From positions 1 through 39,529 of the forward strand of contig NZ_JABIOQ010000049.1 of the NCBI RefSeq assembly GCF_018698455.1: 39,529 nt of DNA, given 5' to 3'. The translations under genes and the position numbers were made by a program. The notes under the pieces are model-generated. The model did no database searches, was not told where the DNA came from, and worked only from the letters and a program-made list of their open reading frames with translations. Below are positions 11,693 through 36,854 of the stretch, piece after piece. Every line of letters begins with the position of its first letter. The stretch's first letter is position 1. The stretch is from Sulfurimonas sp. GTDB lineage: Bacteria; Campylobacterota; Campylobacteria; Campylobacterales; Sulfurimonadaceae.

Positions 11693-11704
11693 TGGTTTTT
11701 TCTA

Positions 11705-29650: not shown

Positions 29651-29965
29651 TTAGCCTTTAATATATGAACAGCAGTAATCTGTAACTTTTGTTACCTTCA
29701 CATCAAAAGATAAGTTAGCACCAACATTAAAAGTCTCCGGTGTGTTAAGAGTTTTCCACTCTTCATTTGGTAGTTTAATCTCTAAATCACCACTTAACAT
29801 TTCCATAATCTCTGCTTCATTTGTACCAAAAGTATATTCACCTGGAAGCATAATACCAAGAGACTTTATAGTACCATCACTGAACTCTAAAGTTCTACTT
29901 GTTACCTTTCCATCATAATATATATTTGCCTCTTTTACAGCCGTTACATTTTCAAATTTACTCAT
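29651..29965 (-). CDS. ppnP: Pyrimidine/purine nucleoside phosphorylase PpnP
   Basis: A 104-residue cupin-like protein of the PpnP (YaiE, DUF1255) family, which phosphorolyses several nucleosides. The C-terminal block [24 protein letters not shown] and the central [20 protein letters not shown] are characteristic. It overlaps the ruvC stop by four bases and ends the XRE-unknown-ruvC-ppnP operon. Confidence 0.92.
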
Positions 29966-30447
29966 TTCATTCCTTTATTTAATTTTACCCTTTGAGAGTG
30001 TGTAATAGCAACAGCCATTGCATCACTTATATCAAGTGGTTTAATTTCTTGTTTGATGTTAAGCAATCGTTTAACCATAAAGTTAACCTGTTCTTTACTC
30101 GCCTTACCTTTACCAGTAAGTGCTTTTTTCACTTGTAAAGCAGTATACTCATTAAATTGTCCAAACTCTTGTAATAACTTAAGCATTATAGCACCTCTAA
30201 ACTGTGCTAACTTTATAGTAGTTGCCGGATTATGTGCATAAAATATATCTTCCATGGCAACTTCATCAATAGTATGAGAAGCAAATACTCTAGTTAAGCC
30301 CTCAACCATCTGAGGAATCTGGAACTGCAGTTCCTCTGCTTTCATTTTTATAAGACCCGCTTCTACTAAAGATATTTTTGAGTTTTCTAATCTTATAAGA
30401 GCATAACCCATATTTCTTGTTCCAGGGTCTATCCCTAAAATAATCAT
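29962..30447 (-). CDS. ruvC: Holliday junction resolvase RuvC
   Basis: A 161-residue RNase H-fold endonuclease that cuts Holliday junctions bound by RuvAB. Catalytic acids: Asp7 ([11 protein letters not shown]), Glu in [11 protein letters not shown], and the Asp pair in [26 protein letters not shown] is the junction-contact helix. Length is normal. It overlaps both neighbours by four bases. ruvA and ruvB are elsewhere. Confidence 0.95.
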
Positions 30448-30947
30448 GCTTTACTTTCTATTTGAAATGGTTCTGGAAACTCTTTGAGTTTTTTATAACT
30501 TTGGATACTCTTTGCAATCATTCTATGAAGGCTATTTGGGTCTTGAAAGTTTATCTTAGCTATTAAGTCTCTTCCACCTAAACTCTGCATAACCCATAGT
30601 TGCATCTCACTAGGTTTAAAAGTCTCTCTAACATTAATACGTCGTAAGAGGTCTGAAAAGTCTTGAGCACTTTTTTCACTATCTTTTAAAACAGTTTTAT
30701 AGATACTATGTAATAAATTAGCTATATCCTCAGCATCCGTATCTGTATCAAAAGTTTTTTTAATGCCACTCATCGCTAAAAGTTTAGAAAGTTTTTTTAA
30801 AAACTTATACTCAGGCTTTAGACCTTCTATGAGTATATTTCGTGCACTACCAAATTTGTTAATAAGGTCTAATACTATTTCAATTGTCTCTTCATCAGTA
30901 TTAAGCCCATACTCATCTATAATTATTTTTGCTTCTTTTATACTCAC
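30444..30947 (-). CDS. Unknown helical protein between the XRE gene and ruvC
   Basis: A 167-residue soluble, largely helical, slightly basic protein without signal, membrane span or recognised motif. Features are a helix pair near the N-terminus ([20 protein letters not shown]) and a C-terminal segment with [20 protein letters not shown]. Four-base overlaps with both neighbours show it is translated together with the XRE gene and ruvC. A DNA-related function is suggested by context only. Confidence 0.7.
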
Positions 30948-31687
30948 TTAATAAACCCTCCCTCACGTAATTTATCTAGAATAGCTTCATGCTCTAGACC
31001 TTGCTTTTTATAGATATTATACCAAACCTGGCCCTCTTCATTAAACTTTATTTCCTCTTTAGAATACATAGCTTCATGTTCTAATGTATTAAAGTGCTCT
31101 ATGAGCTTCGCTATATTCATAATATACTGTCTATGAAATTGTGCTTTGGGTGAAGAAGAGAAAAGCCATCTAATCGCATCATAAAACATTTGAGCTGTTC
31201 TGTTCGTTTCATGCATATGCACTCTTAAAAGATACTCTCCATCAGTGTTTTTAAATTCTTTTCTTACATAGTTTGGTTGGAGTTTCTTTCTTTCTTGGTC
31301 AAAAAAACTTACAACACGTTTTATATCTAAATTAGAATTTTCTTTTCTCTCTAAGTTAGGCTCTTTAACTGTCGTATTTACAATTTCTTTTTTAACTTCA
31401 ACTTCTATAATTTTTTCATCTTGAATTTGGAGGGCAAAAAGATTCTTATCTTCTTTTACTTCTTCATCAAGTTCAAAAAGGTTTTTGAAGTCATCTAAGA
31501 TATCAAGACCACTTAAAATATCTACAAATCCCTCAAAAGATATCTGTCCACTTTTCTCAAAACGTGTGTACTTACTATAGTTCATATTTATTTTTTGTGC
31601 AAAAAGTTCTTGTGTTTTAAATCTTTTTTTACGAATACTCTTCACTTGTTTAGCTATATCTTTTAAAGTGTCTAAATTTTCTTCCAT
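30944..31687 (-). CDS. XRE-type helix-turn-helix protein, first gene of the ruvC operon
   Basis: A 247-residue protein. Residues 8-65 look like a Cro/C1-type HTH domain (QELFAQKINMNYSKYTRFEKSG fits the turn and recognition helix, shown over 20 positions of similarity). A charged linker (70-125) leads to a C-terminal domain (130-247) of unknown fold with FDQERKKLQPNYVRKEF and helices near RWLFSSSPKAQFHRQ. It is divergent from dnaA, with a 24-base dyad at its promoter, so it may regulate itself and perhaps dnaA. Target unknown. Confidence 0.7.
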   Translation of the reverse strand: MEENLDTLKDIAKQVKSIRKKRFKTQELFAQKINMNYSKYTRFEKSGQISFEGFVDILSGLDILDDFKNLFELDEEVKEDKNLFALQIQDEKIIEVEVKKEIVNTTVKEPNLERKENSNLDIKRVVSFFDQERKKLQPNYVRKEFKNTDGEYLLRVHMHETNRTAQMFYDAIRWLFSSSPKAQFHRQYIMNIAKLIEHFNTLEHEAMYSKEEIKFNEEGQVWYNIYKKQGLEHEAILDKLREGGFIK

Positions 31688-31799: not shown

Positions 31800-31907
31800 C
31801 TATTCACGTATGTATAAATTAGTTATTCACGTATATTTAACTTTTTTTTATATAAATAGAGAGTATTATTCACATATACAATTAAATATAGGAAATAATG
31901 TGAATAT
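31800..31907. promoter_or_regulatory. DnaA-box cluster at the dnaA promoter and start
   Basis: Four TTCAC-core boxes: CTATTCACG (31800-31808), TTATTCACG (31823-31831), TTATTCACA (31866-31874) and inverted ATATTCACA (31899-31907), the last covering the GTG start. A TATAAA at 31851-31856 is the probable -10, so boxes lie before and after the transcription start. Autoregulation by DnaA and a role in origin function are likely. Confidence 0.75.
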
Positions 31908-33207
31908 AGGTAAAGAAGTTTTAAATCTTCTCAAAGAAGAGATTACAGAAGTTGAATACAACCGTTATATAAAACACTTAAATTATGATTTAAAAAAATC
32001 TAATGCAAATTTAGCAATATTTTATGCACCGAATGCTTTAGTAGTAAATTGGATTAAAAATAGATATACAGAAAAAATTTCCCATCTTTTTGAAATAAAA
32101 TCTAATGCAAAAGTTACTGTACAAATAACTCTGAAAAACAAAGTTGAAACAAAAAAAACTAAACAGATAGTAGAAGCTAAACAAAGTAGTTCACTTCTTA
32201 ACACTTCTCACTCATTTTCAAACTTTATGGTTGGTGGATCTAACCAGTTTGCCTATGCTGCCGTTAAAAGTGTTAGTGAAAATGCAGGAAATGTTTATAA
32301 TCCCCTTTTTATCTATGGGGGTGTTGGTCTTGGTAAAACTCACCTTATGCAAGCTGCGGGAAATGTTTTTCAAGATGAAGGAAAGGTTGTTATATATACA
32401 TCAGTTGAACAATTTTTAAATGACTTTACACGTAGTATTCGTAATAACACTATGGAACGTTTTCGTGAAAAATATCGGAAGTGTGATGTTTTACTTATAG
32501 ATGATATTCAATTTTTATCTAATAAAGAAGGAATTCAAGAAGAGTTATTTCATACTTTTGAAGCACTAAAAGGTGATGGTAAACAGATAATGTTTACAGC
32601 AGATAAACATCCTAAAAAAATAGCAGGACTTGAAGCAAGACTACAAAGTCGATTTGAGTGGGGTTTAGTAGCAGACATACAACCTCCTGAACTAGAGACA
32701 AAAATAGCTATTATTGAAAAAAAATGTGAGATTAATCGAGTTTCTTTATCTAAAGACATAATAAATTATATAGCAACCGTTATAGAAAGTAATGTACGTG
32801 AAATTGAAGGAATATTATCTAAACTTCATGCCTACTCACAACTTATGCATATAGATTTAAATTTAGAATTTACTAAAAATGTTCTCAAAGATCAAATGAA
32901 TGAAAATCGAGAAAATCTTACTATTGAAAATATAACGCAAACTGTTGCAAAAGATTTAAACATAAAACCAAGTGAAATAAAATCCAAAGGTCGAAGTAAA
33001 AATATAGTTTATGCAAGACGAATTTCTGTATATATATGTCGTGAGCTTACACAAAATACTATGCCACAACTAGCAAAGTATTTTGGTATGAAAGACCATA
33101 CTGCAATATCACACACTATTAAAAAAATTAATGAATTAATTAAAGATGATGAAGATTTTAAACTTAAAATAGATGAGTTAACAAATAAAATAACCTCTGC
33201 ATCTTAA
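31900..33207 (+). CDS. dnaA: Chromosomal replication initiator DnaA
   Basis: A 435-residue initiator AAA+ ATPase. I start it at GTG 31900 (AGGAA six bases upstream), giving an N-terminus NIGKEVLNLLKEEITEVEY that lines up with other Campylobacterota DnaA proteins; an ATG at 31810 would add 30 residues of unrelated sequence that overlap DnaA boxes. Domain I about 1-75, linker to about 100, AAA+ domain with Walker A GGVGLGKTH and Walker B VLLIDDIQF, and the C-terminal DNA-binding helix-turn-helix with MKDHTAISHTIKKI. dnaN follows after the origin spacer. Confidence 0.97.
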   Translation: MNIGKEVLNLLKEEITEVEYNRYIKHLNYDLKKSNANLAIFYAPNALVVNWIKNRYTEKISHLFEIKSNAKVTVQITLKNKVETKKTKQIVEAKQSSSLLNTSHSFSNFMVGGSNQFAYAAVKSVSENAGNVYNPLFIYGGVGLGKTHLMQAAGNVFQDEGKVVIYTSVEQFLNDFTRSIRNNTMERFREKYRKCDVLLIDDIQFLSNKEGIQEELFHTFEALKGDGKQIMFTADKHPKKIAGLEARLQSRFEWGLVADIQPPELETKIAIIEKKCEINRVSLSKDIINYIATVIESNVREIEGILSKLHAYSQLMHIDLNLEFTKNVLKDQMNENRENLTIENITQTVAKDLNIKPSEIKSKGRSKNIVYARRISVYICRELTQNTMPQLAKYFGMKDHTAISHTIKKINELIKDDEDFKLKIDELTNKITSAS

Positions 33208-33388
33208 AATTTAACTCTTTATCTATAAAAAAAGATATAATAATAAAAGTGAATAGATGTGAAAGAACTTTAATATGTTCATCACATAACAAATAACACA
33301 CTAGTAGTGGAAAAGTGTCTTTATCACATATTCACATGACCCTACTACTAACTACTAAAATTATAATAAATATATAGGAAATTAAACT
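33208..33388. other. oriC unwinding region in the dnaA-dnaN spacer
   Basis: TTCAC-core DnaA boxes occur at 33248-33256 (-), 33258-33266 (-) and 33328-33336 (+, ATATTCACA). Directly after the last box come a short GC step (GACCC, to 33342), CTA repeats (CTACTACTA at 33342-33350, then CTACTA at 33352-33357) and an AT-only tract (33357-33377). This order matches the DnaA-box, GC, DnaA-trio, AT-rich layout of the basal unwinding system. The dnaN ribosome-binding site (AGGAAA) closes the region. Confidence 0.8.
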
Positions 33389-34456
33389 ATGATAATAACT
33401 ATTTCTAAATCAATACTAGAAAACATACTCATTCATGCAGGGCCATTTTTAGAAAAGAAAGATACATCACAAATTACTTCACATATATATTTAAATGCTA
33501 ATAACAATTCTCTTACACTAAAAGCAACTGATTATGAAATTGGATTTTGTGTAATAGTTAATAATGTAAATATACAAAATGAAGGGAATATTACTGCTAA
33601 TGGTAAAAAGTTTTTAGATATTGTTAGAATATTAAAAGATGGAGATATAAAATTAGAAGTAAAAAATGATATTTTACATATTTCACAAGGTTTTTCTAAT
33701 TTTAAACTTCCAACATTTTCTTATAATGAATTTCCTGAATTCCCATCTCATGAAGGTAAAGCTCGTATATCAATTGAATCTCATACTCTAATTGAATCTC
33801 TTAAAAAAATAACTCCTGCAATAGATAATAATAATCCTAAATTTGAATTAAATGGTGCTTTAATTGATATTCATAATAATTCAATAAACTTTGCATCAAC
33901 TGATACAAGACGCTTATCTGTAGTAGATGTAATAAATGACAGTGAAAATGAACTAAGTATTATAATTCCTAAAAAAGCTATATTAGAAATTCAAAAACTA
34001 TTTTTCGATAATATAGAATTATATTATGATGACACAAATCTAATAATTATTTCAGATCAATATACATTTTTTACTAAATTAATAAATGGTAAGTTTCCTG
34101 AATATTTAAGAATTATTCCAAAAGAAATAAAAAATAAATTAGTTTTACCAAAAGCAGTTATGATTGATTCAATAAAACAAATTACCACAATTTCAACAGA
34201 TGTAAGAATTACATTTCATGGTGAAGTAATAACTTTTGAATCTCTTAGCGATGATAATATTGAAGCAAAAACAGAAATAGGATTTTCAACAGGTTTTAGT
34301 GAACCTTTTTCAATAGCAATTAACTCAAGATATTTATTAGATTTTTTAAACTCAATAAATAATTCAGAATTTACAATAGGCCTCAATGAAAGTAATCTTC
34401 CTTTTATACTAAGTGATGAGAACTTTAAAACAGTTGTTATGCCCATAGTTATATAA
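33389..34456 (+). CDS. dnaN: DNA polymerase III beta sliding clamp
   Basis: A 355-residue clamp with three similar domains of about 120 residues; it encircles DNA and tethers the polymerase and other proteins. The C-terminus ends in VMPIVI, matching the family's conserved end near the protein-binding pocket. ASTDTRRLSVV in the middle is a typical domain II segment. AGGAAA lies upstream of the ATG. The gene is richer in A+T than its neighbours, common for Campylobacterota dnaN. Confidence 0.96.
   Translation: MIITISKSILENILIHAGPFLEKKDTSQITSHIYLNANNNSLTLKATDYEIGFCVIVNNVNIQNEGNITANGKKFLDIVRILKDGDIKLEVKNDILHISQGFSNFKLPTFSYNEFPEFPSHEGKARISIESHTLIESLKKITPAIDNNNPKFELNGALIDIHNNSINFASTDTRRLSVVDVINDSENELSIIIPKKAILEIQKLFFDNIELYYDDTNLIIISDQYTFFTKLINGKFPEYLRIIPKEIKNKLVLPKAVMIDSIKQITTISTDVRITFHGEVITFESLSDDNIEAKTEIGFSTGFSEPFSIAINSRYLLDFLNSINNSEFTIGLNESNLPFILSDENFKTVVMPIVI

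Positions 34457-34538: not shown

Positions 34539-36854
<2,316 letters not shown>

Follow-up and report, generated by a model that had tools for sequence, protein, structure and literature searches.

Genes and boxes at the dnaA-dnaN locus

The window, by which we mean the whole 39,529-nt stretch of Sulfurimonas sp. DNA that was analysed, carries dnaA and dnaN separated by a spacer of 181 nt (Table 1). It makes up one contig of a 2.23 Mb assembly, and the closest named relatives belong mostly to Sulfurimonas. The DnaA proteins of relatives align from residue 1 of the GTG-started dnaA product. Two further ORFs (29962-30447 and 34539-36854) resemble ruvC and gyrB and were recognised by sequence, without a database search; the bipartite-origin gene order ruvC-dnaA-dnaN-gyrB is backed by Pfam for its dnaA-dnaN part and by appearance for ruvC and gyrB. 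Between the ruvC-like ORF and dnaA lie two minus-strand ORFs (30444-30947 and 30944-31687), neither of which has a Pfam match at 0.001.

Table 1. Features at the dnaA-dnaN locus, in window positions
Feature	Position	Strand	Basis
dnaA (GTG start)	31900-33207	+	Pfam Bac_DnaA, Bac_DnaA_C and DnaA_N above cut-offs
dnaN	33389-34456	+	Three Pfam beta-clamp domains; ATG at 33389
oriC1 candidate, four HHATTCAC boxes	31800, 31823, 31866 (+), 31900-31907 (-)	+ and -	HHATTCAC scan and analogy to oriC1 of PMC5043019
Promoter-like AAAAAAAGATATAAT	33227-33241	+	A-run and GATATAAT in 86/86 distinct group spacers
Inverted box pair CTATTCACT / TCTTTCACA	33248-33266	-	GTGA[AG]N5GTGA in 84/86 distinct spacers
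Putative weak box TTCATCACA	33278-33286	+	TCATCACA or TCATCACG in 56/86 distinct spacers
DUE-side DnaA box 1, TTTATCACA	33320-33328	+	Direct sequence reading
DUE-side DnaA box 2, ATATTCACA, R1-type	33328-33336	+	Sequence; fits S. denitrificans consensus HHATTCACA given in PMC5043019
GC step TGACC	33337-33341	+	Sequence
DnaA-trios 1-3, CTACTACTA	33342-33350	+	5'-CTA-3' here is 3'-GAT-5' on the minus strand
Extra base A (register joint)	33351	+	2 nt, not 1, separate CTACTACTA from TACTA in 61/86 distinct spacers
DnaA-trios 4-5, CTACTA, +1 shift	33352-33357	+	Sequence and group comparison
AT-only tract, 19 nt, rest of unwinding element	33358-33376	+	Sequence
AGGA, ribosome-binding site of dnaN	33376-33379	+	Sequence

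Clusters of TTCAC-core boxes are found by the HHATTCAC scan on both sides of dnaA, as in a bipartite epsilonproteobacterial oriC, with those of the oriC1 candidate lying upstream of the gene and at its start. Over the whole window the HHATTCAC matches are not enriched (24 against 18.2 expected, a count reached by 18 of 100 shuffles), and six of the 24 fall in 31800-33335, at 31800, 31823, 31866, 31900, 33249 and 33328.

The promoter-like AAAAAAAGATATAAT is probably a promoter, presumably that of dnaN. Its A-run and GATATAAT stand about 7 nt ahead of the inverted box pair (window 33227-33266), whose cores are 10 nt apart. DnaA bound to this pair could repress dnaN, and oriC2 would then lie inside the dnaN leader.

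Further downstream, the original prediction had described one DnaA box, a GC step, three CTA repeats, an extra A, two more CTA repeats and an AT-only tract, and direct reading bears this out to the base. It was correct as to the box at 33328-33336 and overlooked a second one, TTTATCACA, which overlaps the first by 1 bp. The order that it likened to the basal unwinding system (box, short GC step, 5'-CTA-3' repeats and AT tract between dnaA and dnaN) agrees in polarity and place as well. In the published rule, a DnaA-box/DnaA-trio unwinding element (BUS) consists of boxes, a short spacer and at least three 3'-NAN-5' motifs (PMC8287927). Here 5 nt separate the end of the box at 33328-33336 from the CTA at 33342, within the limit of 16 bp, and three consecutive 3'-GAT-5' motifs are in register; a single triplet register does not run through the array, which shifts by +1 after trio 3. 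Since the rule asks for no more than three motifs, the broken register is a variant of the BUS and not a failure to belong to it.

In G062, the one-contig relative in which skew was sampled (40 stretches of 20 kb), the cumulative GC skew reaches its lowest value at 1.24 Mb, next to dnaA (1.265 Mb); the minimum is broad, and a second low at 1.575 Mb, some 0.3 Mb from the first, is almost as deep. Ranked by stability, the segment 33359-33398 comes third from the bottom among non-overlapping 40-mers of the window, with several others close to it and about equally weak stretches at 11704, 23402, 33209 and 31832, so that melting energy is non-discriminating within the window and was rejected as an origin locator. 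Skew and stability are both compatible with an origin at this site but do not prove one. Taken as a whole, the findings support the interpretation of the site as a BUS that belongs to oriC2 in a bipartite origin of the campylobacterotal type, mostly of a known kind, and the spacer is very probably the start site of chromosome copying in this Sulfurimonas-like bacterium.

The one-base joint among relatives

The comparison is based on a Sulfurimonas group of 92 loci with 86 distinct spacers, whose membership was set by DnaA identity to the window's DnaA (at least 74.9%) and by record titles, which are mostly Sulfurimonas with some other names. Seven loci without a spacer were dropped, four in which dnaN was not found (L027, L035, L077 and L085) and three in which a contig end cuts dnaA (L076, L078 and L084). 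L035, on a cut contig, and L088, which lacks a dnaN match, are uncounted; the slip is visible by eye in the former and in the printed spacer of the latter. A more distant group (L079-L083) was set apart as the outgroup, and a +1 after the third trio is not seen in it by eye. L145 has no dnaN beside dnaA, G273 and G285 were left out, and L108-L110, which duplicate the genomes of L153, L161 and L175, were counted once. Registers were scored with one or two inserted bases allowed at any of four places; the trio weights were hand-set from the published YTD consensus, and the scores are descriptive. A pattern search in four genomes of sister genus g2 was unspecific (the reversed control had more matches) and served only to place two spacers.

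The repeat core is strongly conserved in this sample. All 86 distinct spacers contain CTACTACTA (or TTACTACTA) followed after 1-2 nt by TACTA (or TACTG), and the second block reads TACTA in 85 of them and TACTG in one, making trios 4-5 as conserved as trios 1-3. Lack of such conservation had been named in advance as a possible refutation of the original prediction, and the relatives do not show it. The DUE-side box cores are 8 nt apart in 69 of 70 rows. Of the 83 distinct spacers that could be parsed, 79 have 6 nt and 4 have 5 nt between the box core and the first trio, the other 3 of the 86 being unparsed.

The single-base slip after the third repeat, singled out by the original prediction as a detail worth testing, is real and widespread in one family. 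Two bases stand between CTACTACTA and TACTA (+1 shift) in 61 of the 86 distinct group spacers, and one base (in register) in the other 25. The slip form is very uniform: removing a single inserted base leaves (CTA)5 in 60 of the 61, and the remaining one departs at its last letter. The linkers vary (CA 26, CT 20, AC 7, CC 4, CG 2, GC 2), and the second block is TACTA in 60 of 61 whatever base is inserted. Register scoring agrees for all 61, with a one-base break directly behind trio 3. The in-frame spacers comprise 4 perfect (CTA)5 arrays, 20 with one mismatch and one with two. L091, which may be S. denitrificans DSM 1251, is of the in-frame form (CTA CTA CTA ATA CTA); if it is, the one Sulfurimonas origin whose melting has been published is without the slip.

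The +1 after trio 3 recurs in sister genera of the same family; over four of them, 23 of 32 spacers have it (g2, 3/3; g4, 8/8; g5, 12/20; g3, 0/1, with an unclear array). In other families of the phylum it is the best-scoring arrangement in none of 35 spacers, 30 of which are best read, within 1 bit, as five unbroken trios, three of these (L130, L134 and L146) poorly. The five exceptions are ambiguous (L119 and L121) or break at other places (L122, L123 and L143). In three loci of other families (L112, L113 and L116) dnaN lies further off, and all three are in frame. By eye, several CTA-A-CTA joints occur within one trio array in L159, L163 and L169 (g5) and in L123.

The spacers and neighbouring genes have other features that we record separately. 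A TAGG element precedes the first trio by about 37 nt in 65 of the 86 group spacers (shuffled mean 14.2, largest 25); at times it is extended to TAGTAGG, the mirrored CCTACTA of the other strand, and in the window it takes the form TAGTAGTGG at 33302-33310. TAGGG stretches had suggested, by eye, that a hairpin of RNA or DNA is conserved ahead of the tandem boxes; this idea was rejected, as the RNAalifold consensus of the 86 segments contains no pairs. In L039 the dnaA stop and the oriC2 boxes stand about 1.3 kb apart, with a permease-like reading frame in between. L027 and L077 have no recognisable dnaN after dnaA, which reflects either rearrangement or assembly error. Contig C4 of G298 (genus g5) carries two dnaA-like genes (886, plus strand, and 1737524, minus strand), which are 68% and 60% identical to the C-terminal part of the window's DnaA.

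Inheritance of the joint and readings of the split array

The joint was traced on a quick DnaA tree, which has 73 scored rows and 5 outgroup rows, 78 in all, and leaves 29 of its 71 inner branches unresolved. On this tree the slip and in-frame states require 4 changes, against a shuffled mean of 16.4 for the in-frame label, with none of 500 shuffles as low; only 2 of the changes are forced by well-supported branches, and the extra base is absent from 18 of the 73 scored rows. Because the changes are few and clustered by clade, the joint state is old and heritable, the tree giving no order of the two states. Other parts of the element change on the same tree as follows: box-to-trio distance 4 times, AT-tract length 16 times, box core spacing once and, among the slip rows, linker sequence 12 times. 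The 4 changes in joint length are no rarer per base than the 16 of the AT tract, spread over about 17 nt, and selection for the extra base is therefore without support. CTACTACTA and TACTA themselves show next to no length change and the joint between them does change, so that the array behaves like two blocks with a hinge.

Three possible correlates of the slip were examined. An offset by the box-to-trio distance is absent (6 nt/slip, 57; 6 nt/in-frame, 22; 5 nt/slip, 2; 5 nt/in-frame, 2; 3 of 86 unparsed). The AT tract is on average 0.5 nt longer in the in-frame form, a difference (p 0.0019, without kinship correction) that we do not accept as evidence of an offset, and the distance to the ATG is equal in the two states (28.6 and 28.7). 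No column of the DnaA alignment separates slip from in-frame; six columns differ in majority residue between the two, and these resemble clade markers.

The reading that we prefer, at a probability of roughly 0.8, is a DNA unwinding element of oriC2 with a split trio array, in which the second block is still used past the one-base joint. DnaA on the two overlapping boxes would be delivered to the minus strand of the CTA block and would capture 3'-GAT-5' triplets while the duplex opens; the AT tract would then melt, with helicase loading to follow. The array would be split 3+1+2 (three trios in register, a one-base joint and two trios in a new register), and the DnaA filament would cross the joint with one base unread, the second block remaining in use. 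On the sequences compared, DnaA here would either skip one base or read trios 1-3 alone in one go. Continued past trio 3 without a break, the reading reaches ACT as its fifth unit in every one of the 61 slip spacers, which puts G at the centre on the bound strand; B. subtilis DnaA accepts a central A and, in tests, also C (PMC10721633), and skipping of the joint is favoured because the straight-on unit fits neither. A broader proposal is put forward tentatively, namely that most origins of this Sulfurimonadaceae-like family might carry a two-part DnaA strip of three trios, one obligatory unread base and two trios, at whose joint the filament resets its register. With such a built-in joint, trio reading would not be a rigid ruler laid out from the boxes.

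Three other readings bear on the same observations. It is quite possible that the unwinding element is as described and the slip neutral, in that three in-register trios suffice, an ancestral base gain has simply persisted, and block 2 survives for some other reason or only as weak support. Three trios in register may indeed be enough alone, as three motifs are the stated minimum for B. subtilis (PMC8287927), and neutrality also suits the rarity and clade-wise clustering of the joint-length changes and the 18 rows that do without the extra base; it sits poorly with a second block as well conserved as the first. That block 2, TACTAAAATTATA, is a different element, such as a second protein's site on the exposed strand or a part of the dnaN leader, would suit a register to block 1 that floats by one base and a block that runs on into a conserved AT tract. 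We regard this as unlikely, given that the in-frame forms continue the trio array exactly and that most spacers of the other families read best as five unbroken trios. The last reading, that an AT-rich spacer has produced the repeats by chance, draws on the commonness of the CTACTACTA 9-mer, which by itself is expected 0.42 times per window, is found once, and appears at least once in 36 of 100 shuffles. Its probability is nevertheless negligible and it is refuted in practice: CTACTACTA-N{1,2}-TACTA occurs once in the assembly (2,229,305 bases), with no match on the other strand or in the reversed control, the 16-nt core is a single occurrence in these 2.23 Mb, and the repeats are fixed in place in every distinct group spacer. 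Under the preferred split-array reading the joint may have a function or may simply be tolerated, and melting at a slip-form origin is predicted.

Comparison with known unwinding elements

There are precedents for the site, the polarity and the mechanism, which would extend to this genome by homology. DnaA-dependent melting was mapped with P1 to the dnaA-dnaN spacers of S. denitrificans, W. succinogenes and A. butzleri by Jaworski and co-workers, and the trio motif was stated in 2016 to be present in all three (PMC5043019). The window shares with these oriC2 regions its place, the box consensus, the inverted distal boxes, a DUE beside an R1-type box and the trios; the text of that paper considered here differs in describing no split array. 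The oriC2 of H. pylori, in which altered trios abolish melting, likewise has two DUE-side boxes, a GC-rich step, about five trios and an AT tract, but its trios are five consecutive ones, with no +1 joint mentioned in the text at hand (PMC8235120). The 1-bp overlap of the box 9-mers is the same as in the twin boxes of C. jejuni (PMC6052347). The slip is the new part of an element that is itself already known in kind; the passages on DnaA-trios that we examined describe no trio array whose register is naturally broken. Judged from the published pattern, a scan for unbroken trio arrays would find no more than three or four of the five trios at this site.

The triplet reading of DnaA and its register strictness are known mainly from B. 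subtilis. The incC BUS of that species and the window share tandem boxes, a short GC step, 3'-GAT-5' triplets on the model's strand, an AT tract and the dnaA-dnaN place (PMC6669920, PMC8287927, PMC10721633), but here the boxes overlap by 1 bp, the core is TTCAC/ATCAC and one base behind trio 3 puts the later trios out of register. In B. subtilis a one-base deletion in the trios slows opening in vitro, and completing the unit to three bases restores the rate (PMC6669920). The 3+1+2 split thus occurs naturally here, despite the slower in vitro melting that a 1-bp register change causes with B. subtilis DnaA, and a large clade with a natural one-base shift, together with close relatives that do without it, constitutes a natural experiment on the rigid ruler versus base skipping.
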